A DNA stretch of 37,622 nucleotides from IMG/VR virus record IMGVR_UViG_3300036846_000276, positions 1 through 37,622 of that record. The stretch is one strand, 5' to 3'. This DNA comes from a virus. The translations under genes and the position numbers were made by a program. This document shows, one piece after another, positions 16,169 through 37,227 of this stretch (position 1 is its first letter; the number at the start of each line of letters is the position of its first letter). A model generated the notes under the pieces. The model did not search any database, was not told the origin of the DNA, and saw nothing but the letters and a program-made list of their open reading frames with translations.

Positions 16169-16189
16169 CTCCACCGCTAGGTGGTGGAG
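16169..16189 (-). other. Hairpin overlapping the end of the tail tube gene
   Basis: CTCCACC (16169-16175) pairs with GGTGGAG (16183-16189) around a 7-base loop that includes the stop region of the tail tube gene. Together with the next hairpin it forms a tandem structure at the 3' end of the tail tube coding sequence. Confidence 0.45.
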
Positions 16190-16590
16190 ATGTAGATCCC
16201 GAGTGAATCGGCTGCCGTGAACGTGAGCGGCATGTCGCGAGCGTTGCCCCGCGTCGTGGTCGGGTCGAAACTGCGCAACTGGCAGATGCCCTTCCACTTC
16301 GGCCTCGTATTGTCGATCAGTCCGTCCGGCTGCCACTCGACCTCGAACGACTCGTTCGAGAGGTGCAGGTTCCAGAAGAACTGCTCGTTCTCGCTCGTCT
16401 GGAATGCGGTGCCGGAGAACCCCTGAGCCTTCGGCCCGGACAGCGTCTCGTCGGTGCCGCTGACGGAGAATCCGGACACGTCGACGCTGGTCGCGTCGGA
16501 CGTGAGGCCGAAGCTGCTGAACGCGTTCGACTGGTCGACGCCGTCGATCGTGATCATGTCGTGCAGGGCGACCTGTTTGGTGAACGTCAC
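16177..16590 (-). CDS. Major tail (tube) protein
   Basis: A 137-residue protein starting MTFTKQVALHDMITIDGVDQ, followed by SNAFSSFGLTSDATSVDVSG. The opening 'I-D-G-V-D...S' pattern and a repeated beta topology (FFWNLHLSNESFEVEWQPDG) match siphophage tail tube proteins. Hundreds of copies form the tail tube. It is followed by two hairpins and the chaperone gene, the canonical order. Its likely abundance makes it a candidate target for the glycosylation genes just upstream. Confidence 0.8.
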   Translation of the reverse strand: MTFTKQVALHDMITIDGVDQSNAFSSFGLTSDATSVDVSGFSVSGTDETLSGPKAQGFSGTAFQTSENEQFFWNLHLSNESFEVEWQPDGLIDNTRPKWKGICQLRSFDPTTTRGNARDMPLTFTAADSLGIYISTT

Positions 16591-16814
16591 TTTCCCTCCC
16601 TTGCTGTGCTCGCGAGACTGCTGTCTCTGGTTTCTTCATCTGGCAGGCCGTACCTACCATTCTTTGGGCCGAGGTCGATCACCTCGAGGACGCGGATGTT
16701 GCCTCGCTCGATGGCTCGCCGTTCGGCATCCGGATCGAGCCTGGCCTCGAAGACCGCTCCAGGGTCGTGATTGCGGTAGCGGCGCTTGCCCGTGACGAGG
16801 TAGCGCTTATGCAC
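16587..16814 (-). CDS. Conserved small phage protein, 75 aa
   Basis: GTG at 16814 overlaps the upstream glycosyltransferase stop. MHKRYLVTGKRRYRNHDPGA, VFEARLDPDAERRAIERGNI and RVLEVID are typical of a small protein often found near head-tail connector genes of actinophages. It may be a structural or assembly factor. Its presence here, between the sugar-gene island and the tail tube, suggests the island was inserted into the usual connector-tail order. Confidence 0.6.
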   Translation of the reverse strand: MHKRYLVTGKRRYRNHDPGAVFEARLDPDAERRAIERGNIRVLEVIDLGPKNGRYGLPDEETRDSSLASTAREGK

Positions 16815-17574
16815 GGGCCGGCACCGCCGCTCCGTAGTACTCGGCCATCTCCTCGAGCGCCTCGGCCGGGTAGTACTCGACGAGCGCGCCGAACGGGTCG
16901 GCCTGCGCCTTCGACTGGTGCAGCTGCGCAACGGTGTTGAACGTGTTCAGTTGCTGGTCTTTCGACTTCCAGTCGACGATCTGGCGGTCATGCAGATGCC
17001 AGCCGTCGCGCACCTTCAGGCGGTCGCCGTGATGGCGCCGCAGGTTGACCAGGATGCTCGTGTCGCAGCCGCGCTCGCGATCCTCGTCTGCGGGCCGGTA
17101 GCCAAGGCCGGCCACGAGCTCGCGCGGGATGATCCTGATCCCGGCGCCGCCTTCGTAGTTGAGGAGCGTTGCCGCGATCTTCGTGGCCGTCTCGTTGACG
17201 AAAGACATGCGGCGAAAGCCGAAGATCTCGTTCGCGGCTGGCAGCGGCTCCCTGAAGAGGCGGTGGTCGGCCCAATCGTCCGAGCCGAACGGCACGACGA
17301 AATCTGCGGGCTCCGGGTTGTAGCTCGGGTCGGCCGCGAGCTGGATGCCATCGTTGAAGCGGCGCCCGAGGTAGTCGTTGTCACGCTCGACGAAGCCGAA
17401 GCCCAGTCCGTCCAGTTCAAGCTCCGCGAGCGTCTCGGGGTCGGACACGACGATCGCCGTCGCATGAACGCCCTCTGGCTCGAGCGCGTCACAGGTGCGG
17501 CGCAGCTGCCGCAGGCAGATCTTCGCGAGCTGCAGCCTGCCGTGAACCGGGACAACGAAGGTGAGACGCCTCAC
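16807..17574 (-). CDS. Glycosyltransferase family 2-like
   Basis: A 255-residue protein; GTG at 17574 overlaps the deacetylase stop (GTGA). It opens MRRLTFVVPVHGRLQLAKIC, the GT-A nucleotide-binding start. VVPFGSDDW (about 93-101) carries the Asp-Asp pair expected to bind the metal-sugar nucleotide. A conserved IIPRELVAGLGYRPADEDRE region follows. It would transfer an activated sugar to an acceptor in the cytoplasm. It is one of three glycosyltransferases in the island, all translationally coupled to structural genes. Confidence 0.8.
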   Translation of the reverse strand: MRRLTFVVPVHGRLQLAKICLRQLRRTCDALEPEGVHATAIVVSDPETLAELELDGLGFGFVERDNDYLGRRFNDGIQLAADPSYNPEPADFVVPFGSDDWADHRLFREPLPAANEIFGFRRMSFVNETATKIAATLLNYEGGAGIRIIPRELVAGLGYRPADEDRERGCDTSILVNLRRHHGDRLKVRDGWHLHDRQIVDWKSKDQQLNTFNTVAQLHQSKAQADPFGALVEYYPAEALEEMAEYYGAAVPARA

Positions 17575-18386
17575 CGCGCCACCTCGGCGGTCACGAACGC
17601 TGTCTCCCACCAGTCGGGATGAATCAGCATGTGGAGCTGCCGCGGATGCTCAGTCTCGGACGGGAGGGTCGTGACATCCGTCTGGAGAGCGAACATGTCA
17701 GCAGTCTCCTCGAAGCCTGGATTCAGCCACTGCCCGCCGGAGTCGCTGCAACGCCACGACCACGGGTGGGCGCACCAGAGTGCCTCGTACTCGAGGCCGA
17801 AGTCGGAGAGCGGGCGCGGCCTGAGTTGGATCCTGCTGCTTCCGCGAGCGATGATCCGGTCGACGTCGCCGTGGTCGGGGCGGCGACACTCGGCGAACTG
17901 CTCGTCGTTCGCGAACTTCGCCTCGTCGGAACGGCGCTGGCGGATGCAGAGCGGGCTGCCGTGTCCCACCACCCCGCGGACCGGGAAGTCGAGGTCGCGC
18001 AGTCGCTTGATCGCGCGCTCGAGAATCAGGTCGGGATCCTCGCCCGTCCGGATCGCCTCGGCAAGGGCGTCGGTGTGGATGCCGATCTCGTGCCCGAGCG
18101 ACGCGATCTCTTCGACCGCGGCCGGGAACCAGTCGTAGTGCCAGTACGGCGACGTGTGGAGCAGGAAGTAGGTCGAGCGGTAGCCGCGTTCAGCCTCCCA
18201 ATGGGCCATGTTGAGCGCGGTCGCGAGTGAATGCCATGCGTCGCAGTCGTGGCGCAAGCCGATCACGTTCGGCTCGCGCTGTCCGTCGTGGACATCCTCC
18301 ATCGCAACGACACGCTCCGCCTTGGCGAAGAGGCGCTCGTCAAGTTCGAGGAGATCGTAGTGGCCAAAGGGCCGCGCTTCTCTCAC
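17571..18386 (-). CDS. NodB/CE4-type polysaccharide deacetylase
   Basis: A 271-residue protein. GLRHDCDAWH (HDCD about 46-49) supplies the catalytic Asp region and GHEIGIHTD (about 98-106) the metal-binding His residues, with a further GHGSP motif near 141. This order fits the NodB homology domain that removes acetyl (or related acyl) groups from amino sugars. In this setting it would act on a nucleotide sugar or on a virion glycan, not on cell wall, as no signal peptide is seen. ATG overlaps the upstream stop (ATGA). Confidence 0.8.
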   Translation of the reverse strand: MREARPFGHYDLLELDERLFAKAERVVAMEDVHDGQREPNVIGLRHDCDAWHSLATALNMAHWEAERGYRSTYFLLHTSPYWHYDWFPAAVEEIASLGHEIGIHTDALAEAIRTGEDPDLILERAIKRLRDLDFPVRGVVGHGSPLCIRQRRSDEAKFANDEQFAECRRPDHGDVDRIIARGSSRIQLRPRPLSDFGLEYEALWCAHPWSWRCSDSGGQWLNPGFEETADMFALQTDVTTLPSETEHPRQLHMLIHPDWWETAFVTAEVAR

Positions 18387-18982
18387 GCCGGAACCAGATC
18401 TCTAATCGCGCGGGCCCGCGTGATCGCCTCGCTCTTCAGCGCGACCGCATCTTCCATGTCGGCCATCCGTCCACCCTCATCGCTGCAGGGAAGAGACTCG
18501 AAACGCAGGTCGAGCTGCCTGGTCGGCGCGAGGACACCGATGATGGTGTCCGACCACATACGGAAGAAGTCGTCTTTCGGGTGGTGGGCGAGATAGTCGA
18601 GCGTCGCCTCGGCCCAGAGCGCCCGGTGCGAGATCGAGCCAGAGCCGGGGAATACAAGATCGGAGTACCCGTCCGGGATCCCTTGCCTGTACGCCCCGGC
18701 CGACCACTCCTCCCACATGCAACCCGTGAGGAAACTCTCGTCGTACGCGTCCAGGATCGCGTGCTGGTTCTCGTGGCTGTGGACAATGTCGTCATCCTGG
18801 CTGTAGATCACCGACGTGTCGGCGACCATCGCCGCGCAGAAGCGTCCGTACGTCATCTGGTCTTCGCGCGACTGGCTGTTGTCCCAGACGATGACATCGT
18901 CGAAGATCAGCGATTCGAGCACGGGCTCCAGGTCGACGTTGCCGCGGGTGACGATCACGGCGGTGACCTCGTCCTGGTTCAT
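18383..18982 (-). CDS. Glycosyltransferase-like (GT-A fold)
   Basis: A 199-residue protein; ATG at 18982 overlaps the upstream stop (ATGA). MNQDEVTAVIVTRGNVDLEP opens a GT2 fold and VIYSQDDDIVHSHENQHAIL has the DxD metal site (about 63-65). GSGSISHRALW and the DDFFRMWSDTIIG region resemble acceptor-side elements of glycosyltransferases. It would add a sugar using a nucleotide sugar donor. A longer in-frame ORF to 19312 is arginine-rich and overlaps the preceding gene, so it is rejected. Confidence 0.75.
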   Translation of the reverse strand: MNQDEVTAVIVTRGNVDLEPVLESLIFDDVIVWDNSQSREDQMTYGRFCAAMVADTSVIYSQDDDIVHSHENQHAILDAYDESFLTGCMWEEWSAGAYRQGIPDGYSDLVFPGSGSISHRALWAEATLDYLAHHPKDDFFRMWSDTIIGVLAPTRQLDLRFESLPCSDEGGRMADMEDAVALKSEAITRARAIRDLVPA

Positions 18983-19584
18983 ACGGCCATCTCCGCGAGG
19001 TGACGCTCCCGGTTCTCGGGCGTGAGCTCCAGGTTCGTCCGTGTCTGGTCGTGCTGCGAGTAGAGGTAGTTCACGCGTCCGCTCGTCGCGAAGGTCGCGC
19101 CGGCGGCGGCGAGCCTGCGCCAGAGATCCCAGTCCTGGAAGCCTGCGTCTCGGAAGCCCCCTACGCGCTCGAGGGCCGAGCGCCTGATCGCGCTGCCGGC
19201 GGCGTAGCCGTTGCTGCTCGACGCGAGGTAGGCGTCGTTGCTCATCGGCTCGCTGATGTGGATGACGCCGTCGTCGCGCTCGAACCCGGTCAGCCACACG
19301 TCCGCGTCGCACTCCTCAAGGCCGACCAGGGCGTCGGGGAGAACGAGGTCGTCGAGGTTGACGACCCAGACCCATTCGGTGTGCGCCAGCCGCCACGCGA
19401 TGTTCAGGTACCACGGCTCAGGATGCGTCCACAGTGACGGACCGTGGTCGGCCTCCGTGCTGAGGATCACATGCGCCGGACAGGGGTCAAGTGCCCTGAT
19501 TGCGCGCCACCAGCGGCGGGCGAACTTCTCGAAGCTGTCGCCGTAGAGGCAGGAGATGATCGTCACGTCGATCACGCGACCCAT
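18979..19584 (-). CDS. Glycosyltransferase family 2
   Basis: A 201-residue protein. MGRVIDVTIISCLYGDSFEK starts the GT-A fold and WVVNLDDLVLPDAL (about 73-86) holds the DD pair of the sugar-nucleotide site. SAIRRSALERVGGF, then DAGFQDWDLWRRLAAAGATF, is the strongly conserved GT2 acceptor loop with the catalytic Asp. Two starts are possible (ATG 19584 or GTG 19575); the second gives the 4-base overlap with the upstream stop. The protein lacks a membrane anchor, so it works in the cytoplasm. Confidence 0.85.
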   Translation of the reverse strand: MGRVIDVTIISCLYGDSFEKFARRWWRAIRALDPCPAHVILSTEADHGPSLWTHPEPWYLNIAWRLAHTEWVWVVNLDDLVLPDALVGLEECDADVWLTGFERDDGVIHISEPMSNDAYLASSSNGYAAGSAIRRSALERVGGFRDAGFQDWDLWRRLAAAGATFATSGRVNYLYSQHDQTRTNLELTPENRERHLAEMAV

Positions 19585-20249
19585 TCCACGTCCCCGCAGT
19601 GGAAGCCCACCTTCTCCTTGTAGTAGCGGAGGCCGTCGGTGCCGCTGTCCCAGAGGTTGTAGTAGAGCCAGCCGCCGAGCTCGGCCTGCTGTTCGATCAT
19701 CCCGGCGAAGAGGAGGTACATGATGTCGCTCGCGAGATGGTCGCCGTGGCCGAGGATCATGCTGATGAGCGCGATCTCGTTGATCCGGTAGAGCGTCATG
19801 TACGCAACGAGGTTTAGGCGTGGCGCTAGGACGCCGTACGCCCGGATCGCATGGCGCTCACAGTCGTAGACCGGCAAGCTGCCCTGCTGGCGATGCTCGA
19901 GATACCCGGCGCTCATCGGTCGTCCTTGCCGGGTCGCGAGCGACGTGTTGATCTTAAAGATGTCGTCGCTGTACCGGGCCCGATCGATCTCCGCGAACTG
20001 GTAGCCGAGCCTTTCGCTGTGCCACGCACGCTTCCGCGCCGTTCGATGCTGCGCCTCCCACGCCTCACGGCTCTCAGGCATCTCCATGATCGCGGCGCCG
20101 GAGCGGTACTTCGGCATGTCGACCGTGCCGCGGATCTTCGCCATCAGAGCCACGCACATCGAGTCGGAGCAATCGCCGAGCAGGCTGATCCTCGTCCTTG
20201 TCGGCATCGGCCATTCGTCAAGCGGCTGCACGGCGAAGAGTTCATCCAC
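19572..20249 (-). CDS. GNAT-like acetyltransferase, likely sugar/virion modification
   Basis: A 225-residue protein with GTG at 20249, 9 bases after GGGGAG. The second half has the GNAT shape: LNLVAYMTLYRINEIALISM, a LGHGDHL turn, MYLLFAGMIEQQAELGGWLY and the closing DGLRYYKEKVGFHCGD, where YYKEKVGF is the usual GNAT end motif. Acyl-CoA-dependent N-acetylation of an amino sugar is a sensible role beside a NodB deacetylase and glycosyltransferases, but a FemAB-like or other acyltransferase is possible. Coupled to the genes on both sides. Confidence 0.6.
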   Translation of the reverse strand: MDELFAVQPLDEWPMPTRTRISLLGDCSDSMCVALMAKIRGTVDMPKYRSGAAIMEMPESREAWEAQHRTARKRAWHSERLGYQFAEIDRARYSDDIFKINTSLATRQGRPMSAGYLEHRQQGSLPVYDCERHAIRAYGVLAPRLNLVAYMTLYRINEIALISMILGHGDHLASDIMYLLFAGMIEQQAELGGWLYYNLWDSGTDGLRYYKEKVGFHCGDVEWVA

Positions 20250-20721
20250 GCTGCAGCACTCCCCAGCCGACATCAGGGCCACGGTCGAAGTAGCCGTAAC
20301 TCCAGCCATCGGGGATGTCCAGCTCGGTGTCGAGCCTGACGGTGATGAGCGCCGCCTTAGCGGTGACGCTCAACCAGAGGTCGAGAGAATCCCAGACTCT
20401 TTGCGTGTCGTCGTCGAACCAGCAGTCCACCGTGACGATGTCCCACTTCCGGCCTCCCGCCGCGGCGCGCTCGGCGAAGACCCACGCATCCTCGACGTAG
20501 AACGCCCAGCCGACCGGGTAGATCGTCGACATCTGCAGCAGCTTGTCGGCGTTCGTGTCCACACAGACCGCGGTCAGTCCAGCGCGGGCGAAGTGAATGC
20601 AGTCGTTGATCCCGAAGAACCCGGCGGCGAACAGACCGAGAGCGCTCTCGCAGCCCTCAAGCAGCTGTGCAGGGAAGATCCGCGCCTGGCGGTTGATCCG
20701 CTCATACCGGGTTTCGGCCAT
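20242..20721 (-). CDS. Methyltransferase-like (Rossmann fold) protein
   Basis: A 159-residue protein starting MAETRYERINRQARIFPAQL. FFGINDCIHFARAGLTAVCV, then DTNADKL, looks like a SAM-binding motif I plus the acidic residue at the end of strand 2. KWDIVTVDCWFDDDTQRVWD fits strand 4 with its Asp. The glycine-rich loop is degenerate. It heads the sugar island and may methylate a sugar or simply bind a nucleotide. Its start lies five bases after the tail terminator-like stop, so the island is co-translated with the head-tail genes. Confidence 0.5.
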   Translation of the reverse strand: MAETRYERINRQARIFPAQLLEGCESALGLFAAGFFGINDCIHFARAGLTAVCVDTNADKLLQMSTIYPVGWAFYVEDAWVFAERAAAGGRKWDIVTVDCWFDDDTQRVWDSLDLWLSVTAKAALITVRLDTELDIPDGWSYGYFDRGPDVGWGVLQRG

Positions 20722-20726
20722 GGTGG

Positions 20727-21191
20727 TCAACTCTGCGTCTTGATCACGACGACGGCCATCGTGGATCCGAGCAGGACCCCGTTGCCGTCGCTCATCGGAA
20801 AGTCCTGGTAACCAGTCCAAGGGAAGCCCTCGCCCCAGGTGAGGTAGTCACAGACACCGCCGAGCGTACGGTCGCTGTCCAGGCCAGCGACAATCGACAT
20901 CGGGCCCTCGTCGTCGATCATCGCGAGCAACAGATCCTCGCCGGCAATCACGTCGGCAGTGCCGACCCGGACGCGGAGCGTGATCGGGAACGCCCCGTAA
21001 ATCGTGTGCGAGCCGAAGCCAGCGAGCCCCTGCTCGAGCCCGGTCGGGTTCGCGACCAACATGTCGACCGCGGGTGTTTCAGCGATGGCGAAGGCCCGGG
21101 GTTCGATGTGCAGCACTATCCCGTCAGGCGGCGTGAGCGTGTCCTCGAGCTGCTCCGCCATCGCATCCATGATGGCCGCGATCGTCGACAT
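20727..21191 (-). CDS. Tail terminator/minor connector protein
   Basis: A 154-residue protein starting MSTIAAIMDAMAEQLEDTLT. FPITLRVRVGTADVIAGEDL and LLAMIDDEGPMSIVAGLDSD match the general form of phage tail terminator proteins (gpU-like), which cap the tail tube during assembly. It is directly downstream of the head-tail adaptor gene, the expected order. The sugar island follows immediately. Confidence 0.65.
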   Translation of the reverse strand: MSTIAAIMDAMAEQLEDTLTPPDGIVLHIEPRAFAIAETPAVDMLVANPTGLEQGLAGFGSHTIYGAFPITLRVRVGTADVIAGEDLLLAMIDDEGPMSIVAGLDSDRTLGGVCDYLTWGEGFPWTGYQDFPMSDGNGVLLGSTMAVVVIKTQS

Positions 21192-22874: not shown

Positions 22875-24125
22875 CTACGAGGCGGTCGTGACCTGGGCGA
22901 ATGCGCCGTCGTCCGCAACCTGTGCCTCGAAGCCGCCGATGATGCCGACCTCGAGTCCGCCGATGGCAGGCTCGACGACGCGGAGCTCGACCGGGGCGCC
23001 GGGAGTCTCGGCGCAGAGGAGCGCGTCCGAGTCGCCGACGATGATCAGGCCCGAGTCGAGTCCCCTCGACGGGACGAACCGGAGCGGGCCGACGTTGTCG
23101 CCGCCCACGTTCGTGAACTGCGCGAACGCCGTCGACGTGGTACCGAAGACGTACCAGTACCTGTCGACCGCCATGTACACGGTGTCCGCCGTCCGCTGCG
23201 AGTTCGCGAACACAGCCGCCGCGCCGGCACCGACCGCGGTCATGAAGTCCGCGAACGTCGGCGTCGATCCGATCGTGGTGCCGATGACGTGGCTGAAGGC
23301 CGAGTCGCGCAGGATCGTGGCGGCATCCTGCTCGGTCTTCAGGGCGTAGTCGGCCGCTGCGAGTTGGAACCAGAGATCCAGCGCCGACGGGGTCGACCAG
23401 TTGATGGCCTGCCACGAGAGGTCGCCACCGCCGAGGTACACGGAGGCGGTCGTGGTGACCATGTCGACGTGCATCGCCTGGTTCCCGGCCTCGGTCTTCT
23501 CCGCCGACTGCACGGACACGATGGGCCGCTGGCTGATCTTCGGGTAGGTCAGCGTGCCGCGCTCCAGCGCGACCTTCGTCGCGCTCTCGACGAGCGGGCG
23601 CGAGTCGTTGATGACCTGGAAGATCTGGTCGATGTACTGCGGCGGCGTCAGGCCCGCCACATTCGAGGAGAGCGTGTTCGCCGGCGTCCGCTTGAGCAGG
23701 TTGAGCCGCTCGCGGGCCTTCAGCACCTCGTCGCTGCCCGTCTGGGTCGCGATCTTGGCGCACTCCTCGGATCCGCGGGTGAGGATCATGTCCCGCGCGT
23801 AGGCGGAGAAGGTGCGGTAGACGATGCCATCGCCATCCTCCTCGACCGAGTCCTCCATGCCGACGATCTTCTGCCGCAGGATCTTCGCGTTCTTGATCGA
23901 CTCCCGCGTCTTCTCGATGTCGGACGCGAGGCTGGTCGTCTCGGCGTCGATCTCCTCGACGCGTCCGCGGTACTTCACGATCTGGTCGTTCTCGTGCTCG
24001 TCGAGGGCGGCGCCCTCGCGGGAGTTGACGGCCGCGGTCAGGTCCTCCCACTTCTCCGTGATGACGGAGCGCTCGTCGAGCAGCGTCGCCAGACGGGTTT
24101 CCATCTGGTGCGTCGATGCACTCAT
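22875..24125 (-). CDS. HK97-type major capsid protein
   Basis: A 416-residue protein. Residues about 1-95 are a charged coiled delta domain (METRLATLLDERSVITEKWE, VEEIDAETTSLASDIEKTRE) that should be removed by the prohead protease. The rest follows the HK97 fold, with ERLNLLKRTPANTL, PPQYIDQIFQVINDSRPLVE and SALDLWFQLAAADYALKTEQ. ATG at 24125 is preceded by CGGAGGT. The 125-base gap upstream (24126-24250) holds no convincing gene. Its abundance makes it a likely target of the glycosylation island. Confidence 0.9.
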   Translation of the reverse strand: MSASTHQMETRLATLLDERSVITEKWEDLTAAVNSREGAALDEHENDQIVKYRGRVEEIDAETTSLASDIEKTRESIKNAKILRQKIVGMEDSVEEDGDGIVYRTFSAYARDMILTRGSEECAKIATQTGSDEVLKARERLNLLKRTPANTLSSNVAGLTPPQYIDQIFQVINDSRPLVESATKVALERGTLTYPKISQRPIVSVQSAEKTEAGNQAMHVDMVTTTASVYLGGGDLSWQAINWSTPSALDLWFQLAAADYALKTEQDAATILRDSAFSHVIGTTIGSTPTFADFMTAVGAGAAAVFANSQRTADTVYMAVDRYWYVFGTTSTAFAQFTNVGGDNVGPLRFVPSRGLDSGLIIVGDSDALLCAETPGAPVELRVVEPAIGGLEVGIIGGFEAQVADDGAFAQVTTAS

Positions 24126-33251: not shown

Positions 33252-33382
33252 CCTGCACGCTTCGTCAGCGCCACGTCGTGGACGACGGCCCCGTGAAGCA
33301 CGAGCCAGCGGAACGCGAGCAGCGAGACGATGGGGACGTTCGCCCACCACAGCCGCCAGCGCCGTAAACGAGCGTCAGCCAC
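33152..33382 (-). CDS. Small basic membrane protein, 76 aa, with start motif
   Basis: GTG at 33382 begins MADARLRRWRLWWANVPIVS; the first codons, GTGGCTGACGCTCG, are the motif. LLAFRWLVLHGAVV gives one membrane helix, and the rest is basic (KRAGRRRKPDPKAVLV). It overlaps the Ala-rich gene's stop by 8 bases and the next gene's start by 13. Unknown function. Confidence 0.6.
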   Translation of the reverse strand: MADARLRRWRLWWANVPIVSLLAFRWLVLHGAVVHDVALTKRAGRRRKPDPKAVLVRPYGWGPNTLKREDGSSWAK

Positions 33383-34175
33383 GGTTGCTGACCTCGATCA
33401 TTCGGTCGAGCAGCAGCAACGCTGACTGCTGCAAGCCCTTGACCGTAGGCGCGAGAGCGGCCCTGGCTGCGGCCCTGGCTGCGTCCCTGGCTGCGTCCCT
33501 GGCTGCGGCCCAGGCTGCGGCCCAGGCTGCGTCCCAGGCTGCGGCCCTGGCTGCGGCCCCGGCTGCGGCCCCGGCTGCGTCCCAGGCTGCGTCCCAGGCT
33601 GCGTCCCTGGCTGCGTCCCAGGCTGCGGCCCAGGCTGCGGCCCAGGCTGCGGCCCCGGCTGCGGCCCAGGCTGCGTCCCCGGCTGCGTCCCCGGCTGCGG
33701 CCCAGGCTGCGGCCCCGGCTGCGGCCGAATCCTTCCTGGCGGTCGCCAGCGTCGGCTGCGCCTTCTTCGCGCTCGCGCTCGACAAGATCGGAGCAAGCCC
33801 TTCAAGCGCCTCGGCCTGCTCGGTCAGCCCGGCGAGACGCATGAACGCCGGGCCGCACTCGCGGGCGAGCCAGTCGGTCAGCATCCAGGCGCGCTTCTCC
33901 TCGTCCCGTTTGCCGGTGTTGGTGCCGACGACCCGGACAATGTACGGCTTCAACATCTGCCTGTCCGCGTCCGGGAGCGAGTCATTCCACGACCGCAAGA
34001 ACGAGCCTAGGACCAGGCTCGCGCACTCTGGATGGTCGCTGAACGTCTCGCCTGCAACGTAGGCGACGGCCTCCATGACGCACGCCTCCACGAGGCCGTT
34101 ATTCGGTGCGCTGTGCGCTCCGGCGCTAAGTTCCAGCGCCTCGATGTACGGGAGGCGTTCCTCCAAGATCGTCAC
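33375..34175 (-). CDS. Alanine-rich tandem-repeat protein
   Basis: A 266-residue protein; GTG at 34175 follows GAGGAG. The N-terminal 145 residues are a globular helical domain (MTILEERLPYIEALELSAGA, YIVRVVGTNTGKRDEEKRAW, CGPAFMRLAGLTEQAEALEG) of a phage-associated family with no known function. Then come about 21 units of four residues, A-A-(W/R/G)-(A/D), spanning about 90 residues, and a short C-terminal helix (LQQSALLLLDRMIEVSN). The repeat should make a long helix with bulky residues every fourth position. The N-terminal domain may be a conserved partner with the repeat as a variable rod. Confidence 0.75.
   Translation of the reverse strand: MTILEERLPYIEALELSAGAHSAPNNGLVEACVMEAVAYVAGETFSDHPECASLVLGSFLRSWNDSLPDADRQMLKPYIVRVVGTNTGKRDEEKRAWMLTDWLARECGPAFMRLAGLTEQAEALEGLAPILSSASAKKAQPTLATARKDSAAAGAAAWAAAGDAAGDAAWAAAGAAAWAAAWAAAWDAARDAAWDAAWDAAGAAAGAAARAAAWDAAWAAAWAAARDAARDAARAAARAALAPTVKGLQQSALLLLDRMIEVSNRG
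33469..33720. repeat. Tandem 12-bp repeat, 21 units
   Basis: Plus-strand units GCG(G/T)CCC(T/A/C)GGCT repeat without interruption from 33469 to 33720. Only two positions vary. On the coding strand they give A-A-X-Z with X = Trp, Arg or Gly (TGG, AGG, GGG) and Z = Ala or Asp (GCC, GAC). Every observed difference changes the amino acid. Confidence 0.92.
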
Positions 34176-34964: not shown

Positions 34965-35112
34965 GCGGGATCTCCTTGAAGCGGCGTCCGAAGTCGAAGA
35001 ACAGGTAGAAGCGGCCGAGCTTCAACAGCACCGAACGACCCGCTGAGGACGACCACCGGCTGTCGCCGTAGCGCTTCGAAACAACGCCGTAAGCGGCATC
35101 GGGCGCTTTCAT
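34957..35112 (-). CDS. Hypothetical protein, 51 aa
   Basis: ATG at 35112 overlaps the methyltransferase stop (ATGA). MKAPDAAYGVVSKRYGDSRW carries a close variant of the motif (GATGCCGCTTACGG). RFYLFFDFGRRF suggests a small aromatic beta protein. Its stop overlaps the next start by 8 bases. Confidence 0.55.
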   Translation of the reverse strand: MKAPDAAYGVVSKRYGDSRWSSSAGRSVLLKLGRFYLFFDFGRRFKEIPHE

Positions 35113-36185
35113 GCGACCTCCTCAGCGAGAAGCGACTGTTGGGCGAGCCTGCGAGCACACAGCTCGGCGTACTCGCGGTTCAGTTCGACGCCGATCGAGC
35201 GGCGCCCGAGGTCCCGTGCAACCTTCGCCGTCGTGCCGCTGCCCATGAACGGATCGAGTACCGTGCCGCCCTCGGGGCAGCCAGCGAGGATGCACGGCTC
35301 GACGAGTTCCTGCGGGAATGTGGCGAAGTGCGCGTCTGGGTAGGGCTTGGTGGCGATCGTCCAGACGCTCCGCTTGTTCGCGCCGAAGAGACGCTGCTCT
35401 TCGCGGCTCATCTGGTCCCAGCGGTCGTTAAAGCCATCGTGGCGACGCCCGTGCCCGCGCTGCTTGTCGCCGCGTACACACGGGCCTGCGCCGAGCCCAA
35501 CACCCTTGCCGGTCTTCGTCGCGCCGTTGTGCTGGCCCGGCGCCCGACGTCGTGCAAGATCAGCTAGCGTCGAATCCGAGAGCGGCTCGCGGATCGCAGC
35601 TGCGTTGTAGGAATACCGAGCGCTCGCCGACAGCAGGAAGACGTACTCGTGCGCCCGCGTGGGCCGGTCCGTCACGCTCTCTGGCATCGGGTTTGGCTTC
35701 GACCAGATGATGTCGCTGCGGAGGAACCACCCGTCGGCCTGCAGCGCGAACGCGACGCGCCACGGAATCCCCACTAGGTTCTTCTCGGGGATGCCAGCGC
35801 GGGCGGTCCCGGTCAGGCTGTTTGCGCGCTGCGCTCGCACGCCCGACGGCGTGAGCGTGCTCTTCTTCTCGTCACCGCTTGCGCCCTTGCCGTGCGAGGA
35901 GTAGCTGTCGCCGAGGTTGAGCCAGAGCGTGCCCGCCGGCGTAAGCACACGGCGCACGTCGCGGAACACGTCGACGAGCGACGCCACATATTCGTCCGGC
36001 GAGCACTCGAACCCTAGTTGACCGTCCACGCCGTAGTCGCGCAAGCCCCAGTACGGCGGGCTCGTCACGCAGCAGTCCACGGAGGCACTCGACAGCGCTC
36101 CAAGCACATCGCGCACGTCGCCGAGGTAGAGCGTGAAATCGGGGTCGTCGACGAACGCCGAGAGATAGACGTTCGCGTCAGACAA
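35109..36185 (-). CDS. N4-cytosine/N6-adenine DNA methyltransferase
   Basis: A 358-residue protein; TTG at 36185 opens MSDANVYLSAFVDDPDFTLY with the motif. TSPPYWGLRDYG (about 41-52) is the catalytic (D/S)PPY-type motif, and LDPFMGSGTTAKVARDLGR (about 320-338) the SAM-binding motif. Between them a variable region about 90-290 would form the target-recognition domain. The Ser-Pro-Pro-Tyr form points to m4C, though m6A is not excluded. Probably protects phage DNA from restriction. An upstream in-frame extension to 36290 is rejected because it overlaps the neighbouring gene. Confidence 0.85.
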   Translation of the reverse strand: MSDANVYLSAFVDDPDFTLYLGDVRDVLGALSSASVDCCVTSPPYWGLRDYGVDGQLGFECSPDEYVASLVDVFRDVRRVLTPAGTLWLNLGDSYSSHGKGASGDEKKSTLTPSGVRAQRANSLTGTARAGIPEKNLVGIPWRVAFALQADGWFLRSDIIWSKPNPMPESVTDRPTRAHEYVFLLSASARYSYNAAAIREPLSDSTLADLARRRAPGQHNGATKTGKGVGLGAGPCVRGDKQRGHGRRHDGFNDRWDQMSREEQRLFGANKRSVWTIATKPYPDAHFATFPQELVEPCILAGCPEGGTVLDPFMGSGTTAKVARDLGRRSIGVELNREYAELCARRLAQQSLLAEEVA

Positions 36186-36336
36186 CGGTTCCGTCCTCGC
36201 GGTACAGGTTGATTCGGTGGATGCTGCTGAACTTCTCTGATGCGCCCCACTCGGGATGCTCGTCCGTCCCGAAAGCCTGCTCGTTCGCATCGTCGTCTGA
36301 GTCAGCCTCGAACTCCACTGTCAGCCGATATTTCAT
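36178..36336 (-). CDS. Small acidic protein, 52 aa
   Basis: ATG at 36336 overlaps the Dcm-type stop (ATGA). MKYRLTVEFEADSDDDANEQ contains DDDAN, an approximate start motif, and EHPEWGASEKFSSIHRINLY. The beta-strand-like opening and acidic middle fit a small DNA-mimic or DUF-type protein; no family confirmed. Its stop overlaps the next TTG by 8 bases. Confidence 0.55.
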   Translation of the reverse strand: MKYRLTVEFEADSDDDANEQAFGTDEHPEWGASEKFSSIHRINLYREDGTVV

Positions 36337-37055
36337 GCTGCAATCTCCTCTCGTAAATAGGCGAGAAGCTGCCTGCCAACGTGCTCTGTGTACGCCGGCG
36401 GGATCGCTTCGTTCAACTCAGCCTTTGTCATCCAGTCGATTCCCATAGCGGCACGGGCTTCATCGGCAGTGCCCTTGTAGGTACGACCTCCCTTGCCGTC
36501 CAGGCGCGGCGCTCGTGTAGGTCCTCCGCCGGATACGTCGATTACCGGGCGCTTGTCGAGGTGGCAACCGCAGCCAGCAGACACAAGCGGCCAGCGCCAG
36601 TTAGTCTCGAACAGGCGGTGTCGGCGTAGCCTGTAGCCGTCTACCCCGAGCCTAAATCTGGCGCCGCAGAACGTCACTGGATCAAGCAGCGGTGCTCCCT
36701 CCACGTTCTCGATGACGTACGGCAGCCCTGTCTCTTCGAGTAGCTCGCGTATCGGCTCGATCAGATCAGGATGCGTGTGGCCGTTCCCGTTACGCTTTGC
36801 CAGATCGCTGTAGCGCTGACAGGGTGGCGAGGCATGGATCGCATCCCAATCCTCGAGTCCGTAGAAGGTCCCATTAGGCCAGCATGCACCTTCTCGAAGC
36901 ACGTCCAGAGCGTCCGCGTGAGCAAACGCAAACGGATACCTGTGCTGCGGCGTAATATCCACGCCGACGACCTCGAACCCTGCGCGGTGATAGCCCATCG
37001 CGGCGCCGCCGGCGCCGCAGAACAGGTCCAGCAAACGTGGCCGGTCAGGCTGCAT
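36333..37055 (-). CDS. dcm: C5-cytosine DNA methyltransferase (Dcm-type)
   Basis: A 240-residue protein. LLDLFCGAGGAAMGYHRAGF is motif I, ASPPCQRYSD holds the catalytic Cys (about 79), PYVIENVEGAP is the ENV motif and YRLRRHRLFE the RxR motif. These are in the correct order for m5C methyltransferases. It is at the small end of the family, with a short target-recognition region before PPAYTEHVGRQLLAYL. It sits beside the N4/N6 methyltransferase. ATG at 37055 falls inside the end of the next upstream gene. Confidence 0.88.
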   Translation of the reverse strand: MQPDRPRLLDLFCGAGGAAMGYHRAGFEVVGVDITPQHRYPFAFAHADALDVLREGACWPNGTFYGLEDWDAIHASPPCQRYSDLAKRNGNGHTHPDLIEPIRELLEETGLPYVIENVEGAPLLDPVTFCGARFRLGVDGYRLRRHRLFETNWRWPLVSAGCGCHLDKRPVIDVSGGGPTRAPRLDGKGGRTYKGTADEARAAMGIDWMTKAELNEAIPPAYTEHVGRQLLAYLREEIAA

Positions 37056-37227
37056 CCGAGCCTCCGTCAAACCGAGCAAGCGCATCCATGAGACGCGAAT
37101 CAGGAAGCGAGCAGTCGGTCACTTCTCGCACCTGACAGAGCAGCGACTCCTGCAAACAGCAGCACGAGCAGCCGTTCTTGGCGCAGTCGTCCTGATGTGG
37201 ACAGCGCGAGCGCCAAGCGTCACTCAT
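37045..37227 (-). CDS. Cys-rich small protein, 60 aa
   Basis: ATG at 37227 starts MSDAWRSRCPHQDDCAKNGC, the start motif followed by seven cysteines in 32 residues (CPHQDDC, NGCSCCCLQ, SLLCQ). A zinc- or disulphide-rich knot is likely. It overlaps the upstream zinc-ribbon gene's stop by 4 bases. Function unknown. Confidence 0.55.
   Translation of the reverse strand: MSDAWRSRCPHQDDCAKNGCSCCCLQESLLCQVREVTDCSLPDSRLMDALARFDGGSDAA

Follow-up and report, generated by a model that had tools for sequence, protein, structure and literature searches.

A six-gene sugar-modification cassette in the structural operon of uncultured phages and its probable role in virion glycosylation

We analyzed a window of 37,622 bases, which is the whole of the IMG/VR virus record IMGVR_UViG_3300036846_000276 and carries its structural genes on the minus strand. 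A preliminary description of this DNA placed six sugar-modification genes between the tail terminator and the tail tube. Six overlapping minus-strand open reading frames, here g1 to g6, are indeed found there, at positions 16807-20721. These genes and the structural genes around them are as follows.

22875-24125, minus strand: major capsid protein (26% identity to Corndog-like major capsid proteins, E about 1e-15)
20727-21191, minus strand: tail terminator, the upstream border of the cassette (phrog_17840, E 4.9e-5)
20242-20721, minus strand: g1, predicted class I SAM-dependent methyltransferase, 159 aa (AlphaFold and Foldseek)
19572-20249, minus strand: g2, predicted GNAT/FemAB-like acyltransferase, 225 aa (Pfam matches in homologues)
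18979-19584, minus strand: g3, predicted family-2-like glycosyltransferase, 201 aa (direct PHROG match)
18383-18982, minus strand: g4, predicted family-2-like glycosyltransferase, 199 aa (Pfam matches in homologues)
17571-18386, minus strand: g5, predicted CE4/NodB-fold sugar deacetylase, 271 aa (AlphaFold and Foldseek)
16807-17574, minus strand: g6, predicted family-2-like glycosyltransferase, 255 aa (Pfam matches in homologues)
16587-16814, minus strand: g7, a conserved protein of 75 aa whose gene separates g6 from the tail tube gene and overlaps both
16177-16590, minus strand: putative tail tube, the downstream border of the cassette (by position and conservation; 24% Ser/Thr)

The first cassette gene had been described as coupled to a structural gene, and the terminator gene does end only 5 nt before g1. 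Successive cassette genes overlap by 8 nt (g1/g2), 13 nt (g2/g3) and 4 nt (g3/g4, g4/g5 and g5/g6). The matching claim that g6 is coupled to the tail tube gene does not hold, since g7, absent from the earlier gene list, intervenes with overlaps of 8 nt with g6 and 4 nt with the tail tube gene. The putative tail tube protein found no match in the domain libraries. Elsewhere in the window, an open reading frame at 33375-34175 (minus strand) encodes a long low-complexity run of AAWDAA/AARDAA-like units, and two adjacent frames near the record end (35109-36290 and 36333-37085, minus strand) look DNA-methylase-like by eye from their translations.

Scans of the window's proteins against Pfam, NCBIfam and PHROG recognized little besides g3 and the terminator, five of the six cassette proteins being too diverged for direct domain matches. 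Homologues of the cassette proteins were therefore collected from uncultured viral contigs and aligned, and structures of g1 and g5 were predicted with AlphaFold and compared with the PDB using Foldseek, a structure-based search that the preliminary description had proposed. For g1 (model pLDDT 96.4), 189 structures matched at E<=0.001, and those ranked highest were nearly all SAM methyltransferases, with a best E of 9.6e-8. Residues D55, D99 and G37 are invariant among 44 homologues, and the glycine-rich motif is degenerate. The predicted Rossmann fold together with the conserved acidic residues indicates a class I SAM-methyltransferase fold. The window's g2 has no direct Pfam domain match; 11 of its 50 homologues match Pfam Acetyltransf_6 (best E 1.4e-4), and H133, Y150, H168 and K211 are invariant in all 50, so that g2 is predicted to be GNAT-like through its homologues.

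The three putative glycosyltransferases were recognized in different ways. The g3 protein matches the phage glycosyltransferase family phrog_9549 directly (E 1.9e-9) and Pfam Glyco_tranf_2_3 at E 0.0026, under that model's cut-off, and its residues DD78-79 are invariant in 10 homologues. Pfam Glycos_transf_2 is matched by 12 of 28 homologues of g4 (best E 3.1e-5), all of which retain QDDD62-65, and by 6 of 45 homologues of g6 (best E 1.7e-5), with G97, D99 and W101 invariant in all 45. Profile searches of PDB sequences gave no decisive match; the g6 profile found the glycosyltransferase 3bcv at E 0.0056. The combination of a family-2 profile and an acidic DxD-type motif, seen through relatives for g4 and g6, marks all three as family-2-like by prediction.

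The g5 model (pLDDT 94.6) is predicted to have the NodB-homology fold: its top 28 Foldseek matches were all CE4 deacetylases or CE4 pseudoenzymes, the best being a chitooligosaccharide deacetylase (E 2e-4), and matches to Pfam PF01522 remained under the cut-off. It thus resembles the CE4/NodB deacetylases of chitooligosaccharides and peptidoglycan in predicted fold, and their motif 1 aspartates, first motif 2 histidine and C-terminal histidine have likely equivalents among the residues invariant in 41 g5 homologues (R45, H46, D47, D49, H99, H104, H142 and H256). However, g5 carries RHDxD in place of TFDDG, and its counterpart of the classical HxxxH metal motif is missing the second histidine: Leu, Ile, Val or Ala stands at position 108, and Asn or Asp always at position 106. 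The complete D-H-H metal triad of CE4 enzymes was thus not found, despite the invariant D49 and H104, and we therefore class g5 as an atypical member of the CE4 fold with putative activity only. Two relatives, L092 and L089, in which g5 was not found, carry a canonical NodB deacetylase between g6 and g1 (L092:5105-5602, Pfam E 5e-29; L089:2202-2699, Pfam E 7.9e-32). This replacement supports the view that the deacetylase step is functionally required. Taken together, the six family assignments of the preliminary description are borne out, by fold comparison for g1 and g5, by the PHROG match for g3 and by the Pfam matches of relatives for g2, g4 and g6. Among the invariant positions, the candidate active-site residues are D55 and D99 in g1, DDD in g4, D47, D49, H104, H142 and H256 in g5, and D99 and W101 in g6.

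We then considered how widely the cassette is spread. Homologues with roughly 30-75% protein identity occupy the same slot, on the same strand and in nearly the same order, in dozens of contigs, an arrangement conserved far more than chance would produce. Among 35 contigs carrying the terminator, g7 and tail tube genes, g6 was present in 35, g2 and g5 in 34 each, g1 in 32, g4 in 27 and g3 in 14, with g7 as a rule adjoining g6; most of these contigs were identified from their cassette genes. The counts represent contigs rather than independent events, since the contigs come from metagenomes and several nearly duplicate one another. A comparison of synteny with and without the cassette had also been proposed, and among loci found via the capsid protein alone, 38 of the 39 informative ones carried cassette genes. 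In L162, the single informative locus without them, the terminator gene is directly followed by collagen-like genes, after which the contig ends.

The cassette also occurs in other arrangements, in which its genes remain grouped. In L078 (contig 37070_002929), g2-g1-g4-g5 lie ahead of the portal gene and g6 behind the connector gene. In L041, g6-g2-g1-g5 directly follow a capsid gene whose product shares 46.7% identity with the phiSASD1 head protein; this capsid type is unrelated to that of the window, which places the cassette in two capsid lineages. Relatives of g6 elsewhere adjoin further methyltransferases, a glycosyltransferase-like protein or a WbqC-like protein. One such relative lies beside a canonical methyltransferase (L137:7226-8625) on a contig binned as a Myxococcales MAG, which is probably a phage contig given a weak portal-like match downstream. 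A GDSL-type acylhydrolase (L084:8202-8756, Pfam E 6.7e-27) was seen about 1.4 kb downstream of other g6 relatives. A tblastn search of cultured phages gave no matches with g2, g3, g4, g5 or g6 as queries (g1 was not among them), none with a divergent g6 relative, and one weak, unannotated match with a divergent g5 relative. The metagenome origins in the IMG/VR records suggest that the cassette carriers are uncultured soil phages. One related contig, L136, was binned with an Actinomycetota MAG. In an exploratory comparison of pairwise distances among 13 genomes, in which pairs are non-independent, g6 correlated with the tail-side genes (Spearman 0.50-0.70) and g2 with g5 (Spearman 0.51).

The closest parallel that we found among cultured phages is the Corndog type (cluster O). 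The terminase, portal, protease and capsid protein of the Corndog-type phage Catdawg are distant homologues of those of the window and match profiles of its clade (E 1e-45 to 2e-16). Both the Corndog type and the window carry a methyltransferase and three glycosyltransferases in the structural operon, and those of the Corndog type are reported to modify the capsid and the tail tube (PMC11600133, PMC12363180). The position of the window's glycosyltransferase genes within the structural operon thus conforms to that of Corndog-kind virion glycosylation. The two sets differ, however, in that the O-methyltransferase and glycosyltransferases of Catdawg lie between the portal and protease genes, whereas the window cassette lies between those for the terminator and tube, and in that no deacetylase or GNAT gene is annotated in the Catdawg set. 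Moreover, profiles of the window's clade found no significant match to Catdawg gp34-gp36, and profile comparison detected no homology between the methyltransferases of the window and the Corndog type. We therefore propose the same kind of function rather than the same glycosyltransferase family, and the two groups seem to have gained the trait independently.

Analogous enzyme sets are also known from bacteria. Rhizobial nodA, nodB, nodC and nodS combine a glycosyltransferase, deacetylase, N-acyltransferase and methyltransferase, which is an analogy only, and no export function was seen in the window cassette, unlike in the Nod-factor genes. In glycosylation of the Bacillus exosporium protein BclA, which is a collagen-like surface protein, the attached sugar is methylated and N-acylated, yet that system has dedicated sugar-biosynthesis genes, a class not recognized in the window cassette. 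Gtr-type serotype conversion relies on a membrane flippase and a membrane glycosyltransferase, whereas none of g1 to g6 has a membrane segment (maximum 19-residue hydropathy 1.40).

Our combined findings suggest that the cassette is probably a late-expressed, cytoplasmic pathway for virion glycosylation that produces a trimmed, re-acylated and methylated sugar. This reading has the best support: the cassette lies in the structural operon, it is conserved together with the structural module in different lineages, it lacks membrane components, and there is a precedent reported for Corndog phages, which is the strongest outside support. The glycosyltransferases would draw on nucleotide sugars of the host to attach a short glycan to a structural protein and lengthen it, with a surface protein of the tail or head the most likely acceptor; since no nucleotide-sugar synthesis gene was recognized in the cassette, the donors would need to be supplied by the host. 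The g5 protein would remove the acetyl group from an N-acetylamino sugar, g2 could re-acylate the freed amine, and g1 may cap a hydroxyl or amine. This order of steps is deduced from the enzyme types, and late expression, enzymatic activity, sugar identity and target protein are likewise what we infer. The preliminary description had proposed that the set builds a methylated or N-acylated amino-sugar chain on the capsid or tail; virion glycosylation stands as the best-supported reading, with the deacetylation, acylation and methylation chemistry and the target as its conjectural part. The tail tube and the capsid are the first candidate targets. Counting against this reading are the CE4 pseudoenzymes among the structural matches of g5, its atypical metal motif, the lack of a recognized donor-synthesis gene and the scarcity of collagen-like repeats, which would be obvious substrates for glycosylation.

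A narrower form of this reading limits the target of the cassette to an accessory fibre or a head-decoration protein, to the exclusion of the capsid and tube. Inside the cassette span, L039 and L045 encode collagen-like proteins whose G-x-T repeats are rich in Thr, and L131 encodes one next to the cassette end. The L039 protein (contig 36761_000603, 8338-11616 in merged coordinates) has 1092 aa, lies between g5 and g6 and contains an unbroken run of 198 G-x-y triplets, the majority of which include Thr. In other relatives, S/T-rich repeat proteins lie between the capsid and connector genes. Yet collagen-like proteins occur on just 14 of 80 cassette contigs, and none was found among the window's structural genes; we therefore rejected them as the general target. 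This restricted form, whose probability overlaps that of virion glycosylation at large, is possible but doubtful.

Alternatively, the enzymes may act late in infection to remodel a host surface glycan, such as a receptor or a polymer of the cell wall, thereby blocking readsorption of progeny or superinfection. Phage sugar-modifying enzymes often act in this way, and a deacetylase paired with an acyltransferase would also suit the editing of cell-wall polymers. This role is listed among the possible ones for the glycosyltransferases of Ca. Nanopelagicales phages, and genome protection is among the roles proposed for phage glycosyltransferases (PMC10202952). However, all six proteins look soluble, and domain scans recognized no flippase or polyprenyl-linked glycosyltransferase in the cassette, which favours modification of virion proteins in the cytoplasm over that of host surface glycans. 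Furthermore, in both capsid lineages the cassette stays within the structural operon, and the nearest cultured relatives of the head module reportedly use comparable genes on their virions. We thus regard remodelling of the host surface as unlikely. Glycosyltransferases and acyl-transfer enzymes are known from DNA hypermodification pathways, but modification of phage DNA bases by glycosylation or acylation, as a defence against nucleases, is very improbable here, as the cassette lies in the morphogenesis operon and not the replication region, no base-hydroxymethylation enzyme was found among the scanned proteins (the replication region lies outside the scan), and we know of no CE4 deacetylase with a DNA substrate.

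To our knowledge, reports of virion glycosylation by phages are limited to a few mycobacteriophages. In these phages it affects antibody recognition, and the cassette described here is most likely a more elaborate form of it. Going further, this phage lineage may encode its own amino-sugar tailoring line of deacetylation, re-acylation and methylation, yielding a virion glycan unlike those of the host, acquired independently of the Corndog set and maintained as a core module across capsid types, a proposal that we hold tentatively, at slightly less than an even chance. Such a line would amount to a viral system of protein glycosylation whose chemistry is unusually complex for a phage of ~40 kb. 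That the Corndog set is non-homologous argues that the trait itself is under selection. If soil phages broadly carry this richer, conserved pathway, in which deacetylase and acyltransferase steps are added, glycans on virions would be more general among phages. They would then have an ecological purpose outside animals, in adsorption, protection or camouflage from host defences, and the cassette would offer a compact enzyme set for unusual protein glycans.
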